Source: Lunularia cruciata
Lineage: Eukaryota; Streptophyta; Marchantiopsida; Lunulariales; Lunulariaceae
NCBI GenBank assembly: GCA_948567375.1
Contig: OX419757.1
Location: forward strand, 14,522,974-14,586,973
Direction of reading: 5' to 3'
DNA length: 64,000 bases
Shown: piece after piece, positions 6,801 to 54,713 of the stretch
Position numbering within the stretch: position 1 is the stretch's first letter
How the letters are laid out: each line of letters begins with the position of its first letter
Notes under the pieces: generated by a model
Told to the model about the DNA's origin: nothing
Seen by the model: only the letters and a program-made list of their open reading frames with translations
Databases searched by the model: none
Program-made: the position numbers and the translations under genes

Positions 6801-9800
6801 CTGTTCCGCTTTTCGACACGACCATGTCTGGAGTAGGTGGTTTTCCTTCTCCGAGCAGCCCCCTTCCTCCTGGACTGTTGAGTACGAGCTTGATTGATGG
6901 TGTGGACTTGGACAGTGGCAGATCCGAAAAGCATGAAGGTTGTGTTCCTGTGTTAGTGGACATCCCAGGATTAAATCGGGTCAAAGAATGCTACAGTGAG
7001 GAGTCCTTACAGGTTGGATTCATTTGAGAAGTTCATTGTCCATCTTCCTATTCAGCTTTACTTATCTTCCCTTGCTGTGCAAATTTTGCTTTGTTGACCT
7101 GGACGTGCGCCTCACACAGCAGTAAAGAAAACATCCGGATCGTGTTCCGCTTCGTGTTCTTGTTTCCTGCAAAGTCAGCCTATCTCCACATAATTCCAAT
7201 TTGGCAAAACAGCAATGTTCTGTCAAAACCTGAACCTCGAAGGTTTACTGGCAGGACCCAAAGCGGAAAGTGCACAAGCCAGTGAAAGCAACGATGCGTC
7301 TGGAAGTGGAGAGGATTCTTCCTGAAGATAATGAGCTGGACACCTTCTCAGAGAGTAGTAGTATCAGCAATGGATCTGGAGACGGTGACGGACGCCTTGG
7401 AGACACTTCGCTGAGAAGCATTGGAAAGTCGGGAAGAGCGTTGTACAACGGACGACCAAAGTGGAGTTCTTCTGATCGTAATGACAGTGGAAAACATAAG
7501 TTCAGCAGTTTCTCAAGCGCAAACAGTCCTGATCATCAACCTTCAGATGTACGGATTTCAGCTTAGTATGCCAAAGTAGCACGGAGGCCATTTTAGCACA
7601 ATAAGGCGGCACTCATAAAGACCGTAATACTGCGGCTTTTATTTTATTTATTTGTTTTTTCGAGCCCATTTGTTCTACAGGTTTTTGGGTCGTGTGGTTA
7701 ACTACAACTTTAAGGTTGTGGTCAATCTTGTTTACGGAGGTCTGCTATTTCTTTCAACTTCCCCTGTGAGTCTTGACTGTGAATGACGTTATTTAGCTTC
7801 TGCTCCCTCCTAAAATTGTTACCCAAATCGCTTTGCAGTTTCGGGCATTGGAGTTTCGTACCTTAACGAAAAACGAGCCTTTCAATCAGCTTTTGCACAG
7901 TCTCTACGTGTACCCACTGGCTGTCACTATGAGCAAGAAGCGCAACCTTTTTATTCGTGTGGAACTCCGGAAGGATGACGTTGATATACGCAATCCCGCT
8001 TTGGAAGTATGAACACATGTACTCGTTATTCCTGATGAGAGACCACGTGCTTTTATCGATGGCTTAGTATGTCCGGATCTTACTAGGCTGAATTTTCTTC
8101 TTACAGGAGTATTAAGGCACTGAGTGTGAGACAGTTGAACTTAGACGAAAAATGGGAGTAACTCGTCATCTATAAACTTAGACTGTAACTCGTCGTCTTC
8201 ATTGTCCTGGCGTGGATGTGTACTGAAATAAGTTGTCACACAGTGGAGCTTGATGTTCTGAATGTACCGAATTGACTCTGTTTCTTGGCTATCATATTCC
8301 CAGGCAGTCTACTCTCGAGACGGCAGCAATCGGATACAGAAGTTTGCACATTCTCAAATAGCTGTAAACGCACGTACAGCTCATTATCATGATGAGTTCA
8401 AACTACGTCTCCCCGCCGTTCTCACTCCTCACCATCACCTTGTCTTCACCTTTTTCCATGTGGATCTTCAAATGAAGCTCGAGGCACCGAAGCCAGTAAG
8501 TATTTTCATCATGCGTTTGTTTGGTGATGGAATTCCCTTACTGAGTTTCTGATGAGGCACTAATCTGTGAACGAGTGTTAGTTGAGTGTGACCCTCCTTA
8601 GGAAGATTTCGTCTATTGTTTTAAAACTTCTAAACGCCCAAACGCCCAAACGCCATGAAAGCATCTGAAGCTTTAGTTTTGGAGGAAATATTTGTATCAT
8701 GTGATTACTCTGACTTCTATCGTTTGTGGTGGTCGCGTAGAGCGAGGAGAACAAATCACGTTTAGTTGCACGATAGTTTGTCGAGTAATTGTTTCAAATG
8801 ATGACAGTCTTTTCGTTGACCAGCAGTGGTCATAGACACATGACCTTGTGTAATCAAATACAGCAAATAGTAACTGATGCGTATTTTGAAATTGTATTTT
8901 GTCTATTTTCCAGGTAGTTATGGGCTATTCTGTTCTTCCTCTTTCGGCAGGAGCGCAGTATGTTTTTACATCTTTGACCTTCGAACTATGTTTCATTATG
9001 TTAGACTTCATAGACGTCATGAAGTCAGTGAGCTTTGTTGCTGATTAAGGAAACTTATTTGCTAGCAATATATTTGTCCATGAGAGTCTATCTGCGCGCG
9101 AGGTCATATATGTAATTTACAGCAAAGGCAGAAAGTGTTACTACTTGATGTCAACTTTGTGTGATATTAACGACGTAGAGTTATGTGTTTCAGCACTACA
9201 CCTCAACTTGTTATCAGGTCCATCTCCGTATTTCAAACTCATATCCTCCATGCATACGATGACCTTAGTCTACATATGGTATTGCTCTAAAATGATGCAG
9301 AGTTCTGAGGTCAGATGGCAGCCTGCCTATCATGAAAGAATTGCTTCCTCACTATCTGCAAGATGCTGTGAAGGTAACGTTGCTCATGCTGTTATGGAAG
9401 CATTGAAGCACTAGCATTCTTAGCTACTTTTGGATTCGTCTAACTTTGCACTAAAATTTAAGAGCATGTAAGCCACGAGCATGGGTGTTTCATCAAACTT
9501 ATATCCTGGCTCCCATGATGGGTGGTGCAGGAGAGGATGGAGTACCTCGAAGACGGAAGGAGTGTGTTCAGATTGCGTTTGCGTCTATGCTCGTCACTGT
9601 ACCCCATTAATGAACGAATTCGTGACTTCTTCACAGAGTATGATCGTCACATTCTCCGGACTAGCCCCCCTTGGGGATCTGAACTTCTCGAGGTATGGGT
9701 TAATATAGCTCAGAAGATGTGATGAATTTAATCGGAGGACTTTTGAAAGAGTTTACTCTTCTGTTTTGCATATCACGGCTACGGTGTTTTGTTAGGTAGT

Positions 9801-27230: not shown

Positions 27231-27339
27231 CAAATAAATGACAAGGAGATCTCTTAAGAGGACTCTTATTTTCCATAACTTCCTAACTCTTAATTTTCCA
27301 TACTTATCCTCCTCCTTGATTGGCAACTAATGATATCTT

Positions 27340-27830
27340 GCTCAAATCCAAAGTATTGAAGACTTTTGCAGGTCCAATTGCATCAAAGATCTCCTCTGGT
27401 ATAGATACCGATCAGTCCTAGTCTGTTGGTTGATAGGACAGTAATCTCCACACATCTGCCTATCTGTGTAGTTGCCATGCATATCCTTCTTGATTGGCAT
27501 CATTGATGCTGATACATACTCTCTATGTGAATCTCCACCAAACCAGCCTCAAAAAGGTCACTACTCTAGCTCTTAATCAATGTTCTCTCCATGTTGTTGT
27601 ATCAATAAGGACATTTGAAAACTGGTGTATGACTAGTCAACTCAATTTGAATACGAGGTCCTTTTAGAGCACCCAAATCCTTCATATTGAAGGCAAAACA
27701 ACTCCTGTAGCTCCTCAAGAACCTCCAAACTCTCTGTCTTTCCTCTCCTTTAAGCTAAGGTCCAAGATCTGGCTCCCAAGTATCCTCTATAAATGTCATA
27801 GGAGTGGAAGCCGTAATGACTAGCTGCTAC
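27340..27830 (-). pseudogene. Reverse transcriptase N-terminal part of the methyltransferase-bearing element
   Basis: On the minus strand the linker is followed by a typical gypsy RT approach: FLRSYRSCFAFNMKDLGALKG, then RIQIELTSHTPVFK, MCGDYCPINQQT, RTDRY, EEIFDAIGPAKV and FNTLDL. These correspond to the fingers and motif A of Ty3/gypsy RTs. One frameshift precedes EEIFDAIG, and stops interrupt the rest. The match ends at about 27340, so the YxDD box is absent and the element could not have been copied in its present state. Confidence 0.82.
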
Positions 27831-28139
27831 ATTGGACCCTTGGGAGCCGTATTGTCATGCTCCCAAGCACTAGAGGTCCTAACCTTAGTGTGAAAAACTC
27901 CCTATGATCTGGCTGCAAGCTCCATACGTCCTCTAGCTACATCCCAAGTAGACCAAGGGTGTAATCCAAGTAGCCCATGCTCACCTAGATGGTCTCTAAC
28001 TGGACCACTTTCCCTAGTAACTACTGGTTGTGTCCCAAGAATACCATGTCCACTTAGTCCATTGCCCCCAACATGTGCTTGAATCATCTTGATAGGCACA
28101 TGGCTCACAAGTGTCCAAGTGGTGATGCCTTTCAAGCGC

Positions 28140-29135
28140 ATCCTATGTTGCTTTGCCTAGCCAAGGCTCACAACCCAGGTCAAATAGTTCAAGTCCATAG
28201 CTTGACCTAACACTTGACGCTTGGATGCCTCTTACACTACTAGAACAGCGGTAATACCAATGAAAAAACCCATCACCCGCTCTTTCTCATTGGCGGTAGG
28301 CTCCACCAATTTTTGTAAATATGAGTCCCAAACCAATCTAGGACCTCCTTCTCAAAAAGCATGAGAGATTGGGAAACGCATAAGTATGGGAAAAGCAACT
28401 CTAGGCTGTCCAACTATGTTCACCACTACCACCGGTGATCTATCAGCCATTACCACCATCTGAGACTAATGCCCAATATCCAAGATGTCATCAACAATGA
28501 TGTGGTCTAGTTGTTAAATCTTGTCATAAGCGCATTGTAGAACCTTTATAGGTAAGAAGTTTGTCCACCAAAGACAAAATGTGATGAGCTCGTGATCCCA
28601 CTCTGGCTGCATCTAACAAAATAGTAAGTTCCATCCAAGGATGGACATGATGTGTAATCGCCACCACTTGGGTGCAAGAATCACCCATCAAAGGGACATT
28701 CTCCAAAATGTAAGTTGGAGAAACGGACTAATGAACTTGGGGGTATTGTAGTATCCATAACATCTCGCAAAACACACTAGAATGGAGATCCTAGAGACCA
28801 AAACCTTGGCTAGCACGTGTATTTCCCTAACATGGCCATCCCAAAATCACCAAATGAACAGGCCCATGTCTTTCCAAATCATGTGCCCCGAGTAAGGAAA
28901 TGTTTGTTGGTAGGGCCTTCTAATAACCCCTGATTGGTAACATCGGTAGTAACTCAGAATACCAATTAGCCAAGTGTGCCACATGATGTAGAGAGACTTG
29001 CCTAGCACTCTCATCTCTCTCCACATACAAGTACCTCCGTACTCGTATACCCGCCTATAGGACCGCAACTAGTCTGGTGTTAATCCTAGCAAACAACTCC
29101 AATAGACATACTCCCTCTACTTGATACTACCAAGC
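28140..29135 (-). pseudogene. C5-cytosine DNA methyltransferase domain inside a retroelement, decayed
   Basis: About 330 codons on the minus strand show the C5-methyltransferase motif series in order. Motif I is LLELFARINTRL (29062-29105); the family's SAM-loop glycines are replaced. Motif IV is VILGWPC followed by a stop, with the nucleophile cysteine codon at 28830-28832. Motif VI is ILENVPLMGD (ENV at 28695-28703). A motif VIII-like stretch is LLDAARVGSRAHH. Near the end come ANEKERVMGF and RQVLGQAMD (28193-28219), fitting motifs IX-X. The enzymes move a methyl group from SAM to cytosine C5. Five or more stops are TAG, several where Gln is expected. It is not one of the host's MET1, CMT or DRM genes: there are no flanking BAH, UBA or chromodomain segments, and gag/protease and RT adjoin it. 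Confidence 0.85.
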
Positions 29136-29499
29136 AATGAGTGTGGTATCCAAAGGTGTCAAGGTAATCAACTCTAGAGGCTCATCCTCACACTAATCTC
29201 CTAGTGGTACAAAGGCTCCACTCCAAGCCTCCTGCACCAACCAATCTGCATGTTCCTAAAATGCCTCCTCTAAACTCCACGATGGAACATCCAAGGTGGA
29301 TAGAACAATCCCACTTGTACTCCAAATCTGAGTGATCTCCTCTAATACTTGAGTATCATGTGCATGGGTGTTCCTCTCCAACAAATCACCAGGCCAAGTA
29401 ACAACACCACTAAAAGCTAAAACTGATGTTGTCATGGTCCAAAACTATAGTGAGCCAAGACTGCCACTACTGAAGTGTATTAGTAGGCAACATACTCAT

Positions 29500-30302
29500 C
29501 CTTCACTATACTGCCAACCTGGTCTGTAGGAGGTTGTCTCCTCCCAATAGTTGATACTGAAACCCATGGGGCATAACACTGCTCTTCCAATTAGCACATC
29601 ATATGACTCAGCTATCGTTGCAATAGCCTGAGTTCTCACTTCCAAGCTATCAATTAGGTGACCAAGCTGAACTTGGACAACAAGCTCCCCATGTGTGATG
29701 TACTGTGTCTAACCACCACCTAGAGATGTTTGGATCTGAAATGAACACCTCTCCACATCGGTCTTCCATAACTTCAAACCAACAATTGCAGCCTTCTCCA
29801 ACGTAAGGGGTTGTGCACCAATGTCTAATAAGACTCTCTATGGTATATAAAACTTCCTTGAAGGTCCCACCAAATGGAAAATCCCCCTCTGGTTATCCAA
29901 TAGGACAATACCAAGTGTGAACTGTGGTCTCTCAAAGGCTAGTCTAACTGGCAACTCCTCCAATCTAACTGTTATTGCTTGCCATAAACCATTGGTCATT
30001 GAGCAAATCCCATGCTCCTCAACCAAGTCAACTCCACTATCAACTACCTCTGCTTTAGAAGAGGGAACCACATCATCCCTACTCTCACAAAGCATGGCAT
30101 CCAGCCGGAACACTAGGGTTGGATCAACTCCCAATGTAAACATACTATTGGCTAGAAACAAAAGGCAATGCATAATCAATTGAGCCGCCCCCAACATCAT
30201 GCTAGATTCAATTTGTATAGTAGTAGGTGGTTGAGTAATAGGTAGTCTATTATACATCCCATCAACACCTATCACACCTGCACTAGGAAGTCTTGGAGCC
30301 AT
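29500..30302 (-). pseudogene. Aspartic protease region of the methyltransferase-bearing element
   Basis: Minus-strand frame with VLLDIGAQPLTLEKAAIVG at 29763-29845. In this element type that is the retropepsin active site, a D-x-G-A core. It continues to a DVLIGRAVLCPMGF-like stretch near 29600, the usual C-terminal part of the protease, then YWEETTSYRPGW. The preceding 154-codon frame (29838-30302) is open and carries no motif I can name. It links gag to protease. Stops follow in the protease. Confidence 0.68.
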
Positions 30303-30425
30303 AGATGTTGTCTACAATGATTCAGAGAGCATGAAAGATAGAGGAAGTCTGACCTATCTCCCAACCTCTCTTCTCTATGGGTCCAACTCCATTGATGCTC
30401 CTCTAGGCACGTACTGCACTCCTAG

Positions 30426-31960
30426 TCATTGCAACATATGCATCCACCTATGTTGCTCCACACATGAAGTCCAAAGCATCTCTATCACCAACATATGAGG
30501 TGGAAGCCTCAACACCCAAATCTGATCTCCTTTGAGCAATGGCCATACAAACCAATCTCTACTCCAATTGCTCAATCCGAGTAGCCATAGTTGTATCAAA
30601 AGTAAGGGCAAGGAATGCACCCCTACTAGGTGTAGATCCTTTGCTACCTCTTCCTCCATGAACTAGAGCTCCTCTACTACCTGCCATAGCAGCCCTACCA
30701 CTCCGTAACTCCGGGTGTAGATCAAAGCATTGGTCACTAGAGTGACCATATCTGTGACAATGCTCACAATCTCTGTGCTTGTTGTGATGCACAAGAGGTA
30801 TCAAGTCGGTTGCCCTGAGTACACTCTCTCCTATGGTGAGGTCCACCACAAGTCCTACAAGCAACACCACCACTCACAGGCTATTGTTGACCCAAAAATG
30901 AAGGTAAGGGTCTAACTACAATATGCACTCCACTCGCTTGATAGGACCTAGGTTGTCCACCTTGTCCTCAAAAACCAACTAGGCATGGTGCAATCTGCTA
31001 CACTCTAGAAAAAGTTACAATTGTGGATGAGATCTCCCAACCAAATCCAGATGTCACCACTCTTTCCTCCATGATGTTGAGCTCAATACAATAAGCCAAA
31101 CCAAAGACCATTGCCAAAGTGTGCAAAGTAGCTTGTAAAAACGTAGCATCACAAACTCTACATCATAACTCCCTTTCCAATATCCCATACCAAAATTGGA
31201 CTACGTGGGCCCCAATAACTCCTTGAGAGAAACTGATCAACTGTCTCATGCGAGTGTATGCCTTGCATATGCTTTTTTTAGCCTTCTGTTGGAACTCCTA
31301 CAAGCTTCTTAGCTTGTCGGTCCACACTCCTTGGTAGTTCTACCTCAAACATTGGAAGAACTCCATCATGGGGTTAAACCTCAAAATTACATCACCTCAT
31401 GTAGCAATACCTCCACTCATAGTAGCATTATCTCTAACTAGTGCACCGCCACTAGCTCCACCAATGTCATTTGAGCTAGAACTCATGGGTACAATTGATC
31501 TTCTCCTAAAAACTAAGCCTAAAGTGATGGAGACATAGTTTGGAGACCAATGTTGTCTCCATAGCTCAATCTATTCCAAGTGAGCTCTCTTGAACTCATG
31601 GTAGTCATCCATTGGCGGACCCTCTAAATGTTGAAACAAGCCCTCCCATCCCATGAAGGGTGTGAACAAAGTCGGGTTTTGCATTTGCTGCAAATCACAC
31701 CAACTATCAAACTCCTAGATGAAGTCATCTAACTCAATGGTACCCATTGTAGCAGAGGAATGCCTAGGGCCTTTGGAGGCCTCATAAATCTTGTCCATGT
31801 CCTACAATAGCGGTGTGGACACACCAAGAACACTCTCAACTAAATCAACTCCTTTGTCAAACTCCAACTCAAAGTCAAATTTCTCCCTCATTGGGACCTG
31901 AGATACTTGCTAATACTAAGCACCAATGCGGGTTAACTCTCGATGTATTATAGGGCTATC
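30426..31960 (-). pseudogene. Gag with CCHC zinc knuckle, decayed
   Basis: The minus-strand reading starts near 31960 with an acidic DDFI-EF stretch, then LFTPFMGWEGLFQHLEGPP, DDYHEFKRAH, RFNPMMEFFQCL and NYQGVW, which look like a capsid region. A zinc knuckle CEHCHRYGHSSDQC (C-x2-C-x4-H-x4-C) is encoded at 30727-30768. It is followed by a Gly/Arg-rich tail and a heptad-like segment RIEQLERLVW. Gag packages the RNA and the knuckle binds it. Several frameshifts and TAG stops break the frame. The knuckle placed before the protease domain fixes the gag-pol direction as minus. Confidence 0.72.
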
Positions 31961-33517
31961 TCCTTTGGAATCACCAAAAAACTCTATCGTGACAAAGTAA
32001 CCACAAACCGCCAACCGCAATTGGAACTACAACTGCAAGTACCCCACCAAGAACCAACACCAACTAAGCACCACCAAGTGCCAATACCAACAGAACACTA
32101 CTCACTAATGTAACTCTAATTGAGACAACTAAACTAGCGGGAAGGGTGACCTATAATCTGCCATCACAACACGCACTCTCACAATCTGCAAGTTATCACT
32201 TCTTGCATCACCGGAGAGAAACAAAGGTAGTCTGATTAGTCATCACTCCAGCTTCACCACCGAGAGCACACTTGAGCACCAACGCTCTAAATTCTAGGCA
32301 CCTCACACAAACATGGTGCACAAATAGGAAGTAAAGAATAGAGGGGGTCCAATCACAAGAAATCTAAACAAAAACTCTCCATCTCATAAAGCAACACGAG
32401 ACTTACTCTACCACCATTTGGCATTTCACATAATAGGAGTTCATATCTACGTCCTAAGCTACCAAGATCACCAAGAATGGGATCAAATTGCCCCTCCTAG
32501 CCAAAGCTACAAGCGTATAGATAACAATGGAACAGTCACTAGGACACCAAGTGAGGATGGACTAGTTGGCTTGAACACTAGTCTAGGAACCAGAGATCTA
32601 GGGGTCAATTCCTATTATACACAATATAGTAGGATAGGCAAATTTTGCCAAACAATGACCAAGATCTACTCTAAACTAGCACGCCTTTTGGCTCTTTTGG
32701 GCCTCCATAGCCTCTCATAGCCCACAGCCCTATGCCTTGAAGCCTCTAAACACCAAAATAAGGCCTTTCTTCTTACTACTTTGAACCCTCTCCAAATCTA
32801 TGAAACTCCTCCAACTTTGGCCAAAAATCTGCCACTTTGAAACTCCTCCAAACCTGGTCAAAATCTGATGTAAACTCTAGCAAAAATCTGACATAAAATT
32901 TTGACACAAACCCTAAAGTTGGCTAATCACCAAATCCTCTGCTAACTCTCCACCTTTGATCCTCTTGATAAAGTCATTCCTTGTATTCCCTCTCAGCATA
33001 TTGGGAGCATGCTATAAGACAATTTTGGGACAAATACTATCACAAAGATGAAGGTAGACACCAACTATCACAAATGTGCTAAAAGTGAATAGAACATTCA
33101 CAAGAATTGAATCCAAGATAGTCATGAGAATAAAAAGTGGGACTAAGATACATGCTGTGCTTATATCTATTGCTACAAAATATACATCATTGTCAACATC
33201 ATACACTATAGACACATAACTCACACATAAGTCATACATAGATTCTAAAGTGCCACAATAATCAGTTTGTTTACACCACTTGAATCAACTCAACTCATAT
33301 CAGTACTTGGTCTGTCATTCTATAAATTACCAACAACTAGACACTAATTATAGTCAAGCCACACCCACTCTAGCTAAGAGAATCTAGGTGACTCTCACTG
33401 GCCTCTGTCCACCATAGCCAAGAACTTGAAGGCTCAACATCAAAGAAGTGAGCTCTCTGGAGTTGCAGTTTGAAAGTATACCACTGGACTCAAGCTAGAT
33501 CTGAAAGCCTAATGGTC

Positions 33518-33529
33518 CCTCTGATACCA
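33518..33529 (-). promoter_or_regulatory. Primer-binding site, tRNA-Met type (minus strand)
   Basis: On the minus strand the site reads TGGTATCAGAGG, one base different from the TGGTATCAGAGC usual for plant LTR elements primed by initiator tRNA-Met. It lies upstream of the minus-strand gag, as it should. The 5' LTR would therefore occupy plus coordinates above 33530, but its outer border is not visible. Confidence 0.65.
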
Positions 33530-33780
33530 CACCCAATGGTGCAAACTGTGCAAAGTGACGGTGGACTCCACCATGAAGTCAATATCTCAAATACAAAATC
33601 TGACCATCGGAAAGTAGTCTATGACTACTAAAATACCCCTAACTACTATCAATGCAACTCCAGTGTCCGAGCAATCTAGATGCAACACTACAAATGGCGT
33701 GACACTATACCTACACAAAACCTACAAACATAACAAGCACAAGTAGATGACTCAACACCAATGGAGATTGATGTCATCTA
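33530..33780 (-). repeat. Probable remnant of the 5' LTR of the methyltransferase-bearing element
   Basis: The position directly before the minus-strand primer-binding site is that of a 5' LTR. No second LTR is in the window because the element is 3' truncated, so the borders cannot be checked. The plus-strand chromovirus begins close by, which suggests the LTR is itself cut. Confidence 0.35.
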
Positions 33781-33799: not shown

Positions 33800-36700
33800 A
33801 TAGATCATGATCAATTGTGAAAAAATTATGGTTATTTCTATTATTTCTAAATTGGACAATCCATTGCTAAATGTGTATTCCACAATGCATAATTTTGACC
33901 AATTACCCAAATGGAGTTTGTGGGGCACAATGGTGAGGGAAAAAAGATTCCTAATAGGAGATATCAAATCACTTACTAAAAACATGGTTATTTATAATGA
34001 GATTGAAGGCTTGACTTGTACAAGTTTGATTCACTTGTAAGGTATGATGTCAATTGTGATTGTAAGATTTTGGTTGATTTTGGGAGTTTTGAGAGTTATA
34101 TGTCCATGCAATTAGAAAAGGAATTGTGTATTCTTATCAAATTTGCATTAGGAATCAAGTTGATGATGATAGATTGTCAAAAGAGTTTTACATTTTATAC
34201 TTCATGTTTTATTATTTTTAATATTAGGATTGATTATTCAAATTGTATGAGATTCCTTGTAGCTCACCTATATTATGATATCATCCTAGGTCTTCATGAG
34301 CTTGAGCATCATAAGGTTCAATTTAATTGATGCCAACAATAGATTCAAGTACAATATCAAAGTAAGAATTATTGATTAGATTGTTTGGAACCTCTAAGTA
34401 AGACATCTAAAAATAGTCAATCCAAAAATGGAAATTTTATCAAAAGAGTAATTATAAATCAAGGTTTGGAGGAAGGTATTTTTGTTTTTGTAATATGGAT
34501 CAAACTTGTTGCACAAGGGAAATTTGATGATGATCAAAAGCCAAAGGTTGATCAAATAGTTTAGGAGTTTGTAGCCATGTTTCAATTGATCTTTCAAAAG
34601 GGTTACCATCTGATCAAGGTATGCCTTTCAAGATTGAGCTATTGCCAAGTAGTACTCTAGTGATTAGCCCAATCTATTGGCTCTCACCAAAGGAGTTAAA
34701 GGGACTTTGAATAACATTTACCAAGTTGTTAGAGAAAGATTTTATATGATATAGTACATCTCCTTGCAAAGAACCAATACTCTTTGTACCAAAGAAGGAT
34801 TTTGTATTGACTAATTTTACTTAACAAAGCACAAATATTATGTATCTCTTGCCTTGGATTGATGACTTGTTGGATCAATTATATGGAGGTTGATACTTTT
34901 CAAAGTTAGATCTTTGCAATGACTATTGGCAAATTCCCAATGATAGAGAGGAGGTGCAAAAGACTACCTTTTTCAATAAGGTATGGATATTTTGAATGGA
35001 GAGTTTCACCTTTTGGGCTCACTCACACTATCAATTTTCATAGATCAAATGCATCAACTATTGGAGGCGCTATTTGATTGATATGTGGTAGTGTTCTTGG
35101 ATGATTATTTGATATATATTAAAATAAAGGAAATACACAAGAAAAATGTATGAGAAGTATTAAGATAATTATGCCAATGAAGTTTTTCTTGAAGTTTTAA
35201 TTCAAGAAATCCAAGTGTGTCTTTTGGCAAAATGAAGTTACCTTGTTGGGTCATAAGGTCTAAATAGAGGAGATCAAGATAGAAGAGGAGAAAATTGAGG
35301 CTATTTGCAATTGGCTTACTCCTAAAGATGTAATGGAAGTTTAAGCATTTAATGGATTGGTGAGTTTTTATTGATGTTTCATCCATTATTTTGCTCATGT
35401 GACCACACCATTGATTGATTTCTTAGAGAAGACAATAAGCTATGGTAGACCACCAAGCAAGAAGAAGCATTTAAGAAAAACATAAAAGATATGGTGTCCT
35501 CATAGCACATCCTCTAACCTTTGGATCCTCAACTACCTTTTGTGGTTGATTTTGATGATTTTAACTTTGCAATTGGAGTTATTTAGTAATAGAAATTTTT
35601 AGATGGATTAAATCCCATTGTCTTTGTATCTCAATGATTAAATGCAACAAATAGGAACCATTTGGCACAATATCAACAATAACTTGCAATCGTATATGCA
35701 AAAAGATGGGTGACATTACCTTTTGGGGGAAGAAATTGATAATCTAAACTAATCACAAACCCTTGTTGTAGATCCTACATTTGGAGCACATGAAGTATTG
35801 CCATCATCAATAGGAGGAACAAGTAAAATTTTTTGATATCAACTAGGGAAAAAACTTGAAAAGTTCCATGTCATTCTTGATACTTGGTCATAACAACCTA
35901 TTTGAAGATTTTCCAAAATCTCTCCTTATAGCAAAAATCACCATGATTTCTACATACTCCAAGGTACATAAAGAGTTTAAGATTGTTATACAAGAAGATC
36001 CCTTCTTTTCTCTTGTGCAAAGTGACCTTGCAACACATGGCAAGGAGTACAACACCTTTCCATTCAAGGATATACTTCTATTTTGCAAGAATAAAGTTTA
36101 TGTTCCAACTATAGGAGACCTACAACTCATGCAACTTCAAGAAGCGCATGACTTACAAATCATTGGTCACTTGGGTGTGGGCAAAACCTTGAGTACCTTA
36201 CAACAACAATGGTGATGGCCGACTATGGCATGCAATGTTTGAGAGTGTGCCTAATCTTGTGAGAGCTGCCAATGAAACAAGGCCAAAAACCAAGTGGACT
36301 ACTCCAACCACTCTCAATTCTCAATAGGAACATGTGCCTAGATCTCATCACATCCTTGCCAAAGATGGACCAAGGCCATACAAAAAATTTTTTATTTGTT
36401 GATAAGCTCAACAAGTAGATTCACTTGGCACCTACCGTGGATACAATAGATGCTCTAATGTTGGCCCAAATCTACTTTAATATGGTATTCAAACACATGG
36501 ATGCCTAGGATTCTCATCTTTGATCATAATCCTTGCTTCACCAATAAATTTTGGCAAGTGATTTTTAACGGTTTTTAATCTACTTGGTACCAAGCTTGCC
36601 ATGTCTATTGCTTATCATCCCCAAACTAGGAAAACAAAACAAGCAAATCACACCTCTGAATATTTCTATGTGCATTTTTCAATGTTCATCATACCAATTG

Positions 36701-53200: not shown

Positions 53201-54611
53201 GTGGAAGATTTGCAGTAATACTCTTAGATGTCAAAATACCATATTCAAAATTTTGGATATCTAACCGCTAATGACAAATAGTAGGCACAAGTTACTGACT
53301 TTTGTCAAAATCTATGAGTTCTTTTCGAATAGCGTTATTTACTTCGTACATTTGAACTTCAACCAAGGGTAGCTAAGCTTTAGTGAGGCTTGGTAAAGCG
53401 AAAATGGAGTAGGCTAGTTGAACTGAATTTAGGTAAATTAGTGTAATGCTAAGGTAGTAAGTTATTTTTCATATAGTCTCATCAGAAGTCCATATAAATG
53501 GAGTTCAACAAATAATACGTACCGCTAACCATGTAATTTTACATGGTTAATAAATACATTTCAACTGCCATATAAAGATACTTTGCCTTACTTTACTTTC
53601 CATTCCGCCAGGAGCGCTCTTGATAGTGGTTCTTGATACCTATTATCTATCCAATATTATGTCACCGGATACTATCACGATGAAAGGTTTCAAACTCTAA
53701 ATTACTACATTTTTCCTGTTTTCAGTATTCATTTTGATTGAGACTTATAAATTACAGACGTTGACATGATCCAATCGTGTCCGATGAATTTAGATAACAT
53801 ATGTACATTGACTATTTTATGGGGTAAATATAGAGAGCTCGTCAATAGGTACATATGCATATAAGTAGATCAGAGTATCATTACTAGATTGGATAATTTA
53901 AATAAATTGTAATAACAATTTTGGATTACATAACCTAATGGTACATACACATCAGGAAGCTTACAATAATTATAAGATGAGAAAAAATTTATTCTCTTAA
54001 CCATTAAAGTTTAGGAATAAGTATTTTGGTTTTTAGGTATCATAAAACATACACATCAATCTATCTTTTTCTTATTTCTGAAAATTATTTCAGTTTCTCT
54101 TGTTGACATTGTCCTTTATGGGACAATAAGTAATGTTAGAATGTGGATTTTATCCTTTGGGAAGACGTTCATCATTGCCTCTAAAATATATTCTCATCAT
54201 AATTATATTTTAAGTGATATATAAATTTCAGAAAAATGGACATTCATTGTTGCATTTTGAGATTGTTTCCTGATTTTGAATGGCCACGATGATTTTCTTC
54301 AAATCATAAGAACATTGTAAAATTTGCGCACATTAGTTTCAATTCAAAGTCAGTTTCATTTACCTATCTCCATTTTATAAATGTGGTATCCATGCCACGG
54401 AAAGTGTCCTTGTATCTATTTTCCCACTTAGACCATAACTATAATGGTCTCAACGTTTTCAATTTTCAGCAGGTTGCTCGTTCAGGAGTCCTCAAACGAG
54501 TAATTGTACACCTTTCTATATATTTCTAGCTCTCATTCGGCCCTCAACAGCCTCCTAGACTACAGTAAACACCCTTACTCTATCTACCATGAAAGACTTG
54601 GTGTTCAATAG

Positions 54612-54713
54612 ACCAAGGTGGAGGCTATTGCATGTATTCCTTGGTCTACAAATGTGAGTAGAGTGCAAGAGTTCATTGGGTTGGTGAACTTCTATAGCAT
54701 ACATGTTAAAGGA
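54612..54713 (+). pseudogene. Small fragment of a Ty3/gypsy reverse transcriptase (RNase H connection region)
   Basis: One frame reads TKVEAIACIPWSTNVSRVQE then FIGLVNFYS. This is the conserved connection after the gypsy RT palm: K-V-E-A-I, P-x-x-V-x-x-V-Q-E-F, G-L-x-N-F-Y. A TAG stop precedes it and the match ends after about 34 codons. It is an isolated relic at the edge of the AT-rich block. Confidence 0.7.

Follow-up and report, generated by a model that had tools for sequence, protein, structure and literature searches.

The stretch of DNA analysed here (the window, 64,000 nucleotides) contains on its minus strand, at 27302-33704, what is by its sequence a decayed and truncated copy of a Ty3/Gypsy-type element with a C5-cytosine methyltransferase (MT). 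Read in the sense of the element, from 31.5 to 27.3 kb, the parts follow each other as gag, CCHC zinc knuckle, protease, MT, and the N-terminus of the reverse transcriptase (RT; Table 1). The copy is broken by frameshifts and stop codons, its blastn similarity to full copies in the host genome stops at 27302, and it is without RT palm, RNase H and integrase. The initial annotation had recognized MT motifs inside a gag-protease-RT series on this strand, and the comparison with a relative (L021, described below) bears this out: the tblastn matches of this copy to L021 all lie on the window's minus strand and in order, with E 1e-84 over protease and MT (ORF1 342-923 and 928-1071). The zinc knuckle lies where it had been placed. 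The RT fingers that had been assigned to 27340-27830 are present, but the RT stretch is shifted relative to this assignment, and the copy is truncated there.

Table 1. Parts of the element copy in the window, listed in the sense direction of the element
Feature	Position	Strand	Basis
Terminal repeat A (5' end, sense direction)	33259..33704	-	82-83% identity to repeat A (~450 bp) in the three full copies
Repeat B, directly after A	33157..33259	-	86-87% identity to B of L054, L056 and L058
Gag capsid-like piece	30970..31498	-	Sole Pfam match Retrotrans_gag PF03732, E 0.071, below cut-off
CCHC zinc knuckle	30727..30768	-	Direct reading; tblastn to L021 ORF1 214-245, E 1e-4
Putative aspartic protease	29480..29845	-	Alignment to L021 protease (Asp_protease_2 7.8e-4, below its cut-off)
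Predicted DNMT3-like C5-cytosine MT	28136..29129	-	PDB, block scores and tblastn to L021; frameshift near 28570, several stops
Linker, MT to stop	27830..28135	-	dN/dS ~0.98 in present host copies
Readthrough-type stop TAG-CAG-CTA (UAG-CARYYA), between MT and RT	27821..27829	-	Sequence
RT N-terminal part	27303..27784	-	tblastn E 4e-28 to L021 ORF2 22-185

The MT of the window copy retains GWPC and ENV and has six in-frame stops in its first 195 codons, all of them TAG. Pfam searches with the window's MT, RT and protease pieces gave no match, and a PDB search with the RT pieces gave one unrelated weak match and otherwise none. In PDB the first MT piece matched DNMT3B in 4 of 4 weak matches at E<=1 (E 0.67-0.68), both pieces joined matched DNMT3A in 8 of 8 weak matches at E<=10 (E 0.055-0.32), and the second piece alone had no match. 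DNMT3A block B and DNMT3B block A find their best place in the whole window at the MT site, where DNMT3A block A ranks second. None of 200 randomised windows attained the score of 97 that the two co-located DNMT3 blocks have together, and 11 of 200 attained the score of each block taken singly. Two models made with AlphaFold2 had low confidence (mean pLDDT 33.4 and 32.8).

Elsewhere the window holds an exon of DHR-2 and a RETICULATA-like piece whose match lies below cut-off. Together with DRM and CMT-type genes recognized by eye in the same genome, these suggest that the host is a streptophyte, most likely a land plant. The CpG observed/expected ratio is 0.09-0.32 at 20000-42000, where TAG/CTA is in excess over CWG; at 4-20 and 42-45 kb it is 0.65-0.73, and there is no such excess. 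Another Gypsy element has left decayed remains of its RT and integrase on the opposite strand at 34615-36269 (+; three pieces, one with E 3e-4, the others with 0.03-0.04), and an RT fragment of 38 residues, 53% identical to L021, lies at 54597-54710 (+).

A relative and the copies in the host genome

The relative L021 was found with the pattern LDLRSGYHQLP in a collection of prokaryote genomes, on one contig filed under a Synechococcales bin; judged by its content, we take it for eukaryotic contamination in a cyanobacterial bin. Its ORF1 (1162 aa) is open towards the contig start and contains two zinc knuckles by eye and Pfam matches to Asp_protease_2 (7.8e-4, below cut-off) and DNA_methylase. 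ORF2 (1047 aa) contains RVT_1, RNase H, H2C2, rve and a PHD finger (Pfam E 4e-10). The relative has the order protease-RT-RNase H-integrase, with an rve integrase, of Ty3/Gypsy elements. Its ORF2 holds a PHD finger and no chromodomain at E<=0.01, so that it does not class with the chromoviruses, in which the chromatin-reader domain is positioned after the integrase. Similar predicted plant polyproteins are known. Since L021 has the same arrangement as the window, there is no sign that the MT was inserted later, in agreement with the absence of insertion borders noted at the outset. This relative's contig (L023) closes on itself through 127 identical bases (1-127 and 9159-9285), as an assembled repeat or a circle would. 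Among viral contigs, protein and pattern searches found no relative (for 20 loci, tblastn with the MT and protease pieces gave nothing below E 0.2), and of 137 stretches found among genome contigs by an MT peptide none was confirmed.

In the host assembly (566 Mb, 74 contigs, the window lying at 14522974-14586973 of one of them), all 121 scored candidates matched the L021 MT at 51-53% identity, over residue 2 or 3 to 326-329 of 330. The number of at least 121 further MT copies refers to this best-scored set, the first look having had 11,107 candidates. With the DNA_methylase Pfam profile, all 123 scored candidates, from 2161, matched, a few of them being host genes. In 30 loci, fetched as the best MT matches, protease, MT and RT occur in the same order without exception; the position claimed for the MT in the window is thus also that of the copies elsewhere in the genome. 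The MT is free of stops in 24 of the 30 and has at least one in the other six. The 30 copies are 96.7-99.7% alike in the MT, and therefore count as one lineage and appear to be recent; the family is, as far as these matches tell, abundant and recent in the host genome. RT and RNase H were recognized by Pfam in one host copy. Integrase was recovered by tblastn in three (73-75% identity), with one stop in the integrase stretch of each of the three full copies, and three host copies have a PHD finger at 60% identity, in which all eight zinc ligands can be recognized by eye.

For three copies both ends could be reached, through separate comparisons of the left and the right stretches. All three begin with a repeat A of ~450 bp and end in B-A-B, where B has 107 bp; the copies of A are 99.3, 98.9 and 98.0% alike and those of B 100, 99 and 98%. 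The ends read TG...CA and are flanked, by eye, by 4-bp target duplications in all three (GCAA, CGTG and TTTG). These are split direct repeats, DIRS-like, on an element with a predicted DDE integrase. DIRS elements use a tyrosine recombinase and make no target duplication; an assignment to DIRS was rejected in view of the rve integrase in L021 and three host copies and the 4-bp duplications in three of three. In the window, A is followed by B at 33157-33704, an order that in the three full copies occurs only at the 3' end. In L059 (5165-7910) and L058 (1673-2327), pieces of a related but older element adjoin or surround the young copy.

The methyltransferase and the stop codon that follows it

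The identification of the domain as a C5 methylase is confirmed by profile: PF00145 matches L021 with E 6.8e-12 and 45.9 bits and two host copies with 5e-8 and 6e-8 (33.2 and 32.9 bits), all above the curated cut-off of 22 bits. Nine aligned proteins share F17, G19 and I20 of AdoMet motif I, P103 and C104 of the catalytic PC, and E147, N148 and V149 (ENV) without exception. In PDB the best 29 of 49 matches of a single MT sequence, and the best 29 of 53 of an MT profile, are all DNMT3A/B/C; HaeIII, HhaI and DRM2 follow in the ranking, and for the profile also DNMT2. The motif order is linear, as in DNMT3, and among five reference pieces DNMT3A scores best against the element MT, followed by the host DNMT3 exon. 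We therefore class the predicted enzyme as DNMT3-like. Three host methyltransferase genes were recognized by eye: a DNMT3 (L060), a DRM with rearranged motif order (L061) and one of CMT or MET type (L062). The host DNMT3 exon and a human DNMT3A fragment score 59 bits against each other, but 28 bits (exon) and 39 bits (fragment) against the element MT in a host copy; the pieces differ in length. This suggests either that the MT was captured long ago or that the domain evolves fast.

The initial annotation had put the MT between protease and RT. As an order this holds in all 30 host copies, but a stop codon separates the MT from the RT. The TAG that ends ORF1 of L021 is followed directly, in the same frame, by ORF2, which opens with CAA TCA; at the corresponding place the window has TAG CAG CTA, and all 30 host loci have an in-frame TAG between MT and RT. 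The six bases after it conform to CARYYA in 29 of 30 host copies (28 CAGCCA, one CAGCTA; the remaining copy has CAGCCT). As a background, CARYYA follows 3 of the 2132 TAGs of the window and 2 of the 190 of L023, both strands counted. Tobamoviruses, benyviruses and pomoviruses have UAG-CARYYA as their type I readthrough motif (PMC5382211); in the open literature we found nothing that joins CARYYA, readthrough and a retrotransposon. To judge by their divergence, the stop is shared by lineages of different depth, namely L021, the old copy in the window and the present copies. Because this stop separates it from the RT, the MT belongs to the Gag side; it sits on the Gag-protease side of a stop of the readthrough type, at which readthrough probably occurs. 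We also considered that the host reads TAG as glutamine. This was rejected, as the excess of TAG fits the decay of CHG-methylated CAG. TAG makes up 19 of 26 in-frame stops (one being the readthrough stop) and 64 of 154 out of frame; the frames were chosen by resemblance, and hence only the share of TAG among stops was used.

Nonsynonymous and synonymous changes were compared among the present copies. Estimated dN/dS is about 0.55 for the MT, 0.50 for the protease, 0.68 for the RT and 0.98 for the linker (27-29 of 29 copies in register, one of the 30 having been dropped for a shifted register); the MT value is lowered by the fetching of copies as best MT matches, which favours intact MTs. Changes in the MT are 72 nonsynonymous to 55 synonymous (P 8e-4 against neutrality) and in the linker 28 to 12 (P 0.53), and the difference in dN/dS between MT and linker is not significant alone (P 0.14). 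Selection on the MT is thereby indicated.

The window copy is 85% identical to the best present copy over 3350 columns, and C to T or G to A accounts for 294 of its 474 substitutions. C to T changes affect 68 of 182 CG sites (37%), 126 of 395 CHG sites (32%) and 100 of 1155 CHH sites (9%). This footprint at CG and CHG suggests that the old copy probably carried methylation of the plant type, which the element's own enzyme or those of the host may have set.

Interpretation and comparison with known elements

We propose, with a probability of about 0.72, that the copies represent a Ty3/Gypsy-type element that encodes Gag, CCHC knuckle, protease and MT in its first reading frame, reaches the second by UAG-CARYYA readthrough, and packages the MT, which marks the cDNA. 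The first product would be Gag-CCHC-protease-DNMT3-like MT, and the extended part RT-RNase H-DDE integrase-PHD finger. Most ribosomes would stop at the UAG and make MT in Gag-like amounts, so that it could enter the particle, and RT and integrase would be made in small amounts through readthrough. In the particle or in the nucleus, the MT would mark new cDNA. The integrase would insert this cDNA and in doing so duplicate 4 bp of the target; a role in guiding it or holding it on chromatin probably falls to the PHD finger. The domain order, the stop motif, the PHD finger, the repeats, the target duplications and the abundance can be read from the sequence itself, and readthrough, packaging, methylation activity and a benefit of the mark are inferred. 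A readthrough stop at this place makes a prediction about dosage, namely that the MT is about as abundant as Gag. The roles suggested in the initial annotation, in which the MT would maintain marks on the element's own copies, hide the element from the host or target methylated sites, are hypotheses.

DNA methylation is the plants' main route for silencing retrotransposons, and it is therefore a testable paradox that an element so abundant should keep an MT of the de novo type. One rival explanation, improbable in our judgement and still the strongest competitor, is that the chief effect of the MT is to restrain the element, whose copies it marks in advance for silencing, selection then reflecting tolerance by the host. 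The window copy, with its heavy CG and CHG methylation footprint, is what this explanation leads one to expect; however, the host's DRM and CMT/MET-type genes (by eye) would leave the same footprint, and the family is abundant and recent. Somewhat less probable is that the MT acts in the particle on the genomic RNA of the element, or as a nucleic-acid-binding chaperone, and not on DNA. The MT lies on the Gag side adjoining the zinc knuckles, DNMT2-type RNA enzymes are among its distant profile matches, and an RNA role has been proposed for SymbioLINE-Dnmt (PMC5890265); against this, the closest solved relatives, DNMT3A/B/C, are DNA enzymes, with a best E of 3e-15 as compared to 6e-4 to 6.5e-3 for the DNMT2 type. 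A slightly weaker contender still is that the UAG is an ordinary stop without readthrough and that the RT is reached by re-initiation or splicing. ORF2 of L021, with its 1047 codons, is indeed open on its own beyond the stop, but it starts directly behind it in the frame of ORF1, and a motif known from plant viruses follows the UAG in L021, in the window and in nearly all host copies. A last alternative, in whose favour it speaks that the window copy alone is too decayed for Pfam, is that a fragment of a host MT gene has landed in an unrelated retroelement of the window. It can be dismissed with near certainty, as it is refuted by the copies with the same domain order (30 of 30 in the host, and L021), and the host DNMT3 exon is closer to human DNMT3A than to the element MT.

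Returning to the reading in which a packaged MT marks the cDNA, we tentatively consider a wider scenario, which we rate below even odds: a lineage common to a land plant and another, perhaps algal, eukaryote, in which stop-codon readthrough lets a DNMT3-type enzyme be packaged at the level of Gag and mark each cDNA before insertion, the PHD finger behind the integrase places it by reading chromatin, and success in this plant led to a recent burst that now fills a visible part of its genome. For Lunularia cruciata, a 580-Mb assembly inflated by Ty3/Gypsy bursts has been described (PMC9985172); the word methyltransferase does not occur in the main text of that paper.

Retroelements with their own DNA methyltransferase are known from dinoflagellates as SymbioDIRS-Dnmt3, whose MT methylates CG in yeast, and SymbioLINE-Dnmt (PMC5890265). 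As described there, these are a DIRS element with tyrosine recombinase and a LINE, whereas the element considered here has a predicted DDE integrase and 4-bp duplications. Plant chromoviruses (PMC6317226) resemble it in being Ty3/Gypsy elements with a chromatin-reader domain, but it has a PHD finger in place of the chromodomain and, in addition, an MT and split repeats. The plant DNMT3 with DUF3444 (PMC6453930) is, like the element MT, described as of DNMT3 type with linear motif order; it is, however, a host gene, and the element MT diverges more from it and from DNMT3A than those two do from each other.

The closest known system is KnitGypsy-Dnmt3 from the charophyte Klebsormidium nitens, published in 2018 and not known to the initial annotation. 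According to its description (PMC5890265), it shares Gypsy domains, a Dnmt3-type MT in the coding region and under purifying selection, and DIRS-like repeats (figure legend). The K. nitens enzyme had no activity in yeast (PMC5890265), a result its authors call inconclusive because human DNMT3B failed too. Streptophyte and dinoflagellate elements are mentioned again in PMC12344493. In the open literature we found such elements in a charophyte and in dinoflagellates, and in no land plant. Such transposons are said in PMC6338049 to be not present in land plants, e.g., tracheophytes; if the host is a land plant, as its genes suggest, that statement does not hold in its general form. Compared by description with KnitGypsy-Dnmt3, the present element differs in its probable land-plant host, its at least 121 copies, the UAG-CARYYA with the MT on the Gag side, and the PHD finger, some of which may be shared; the terms PHD and readthrough do not occur in the main text of PMC5890265. 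The kind of element has thus been known since 2018 (PMC5890265), and what appears to be new is the probable land-plant host, the abundance, the readthrough site and the PHD finger.
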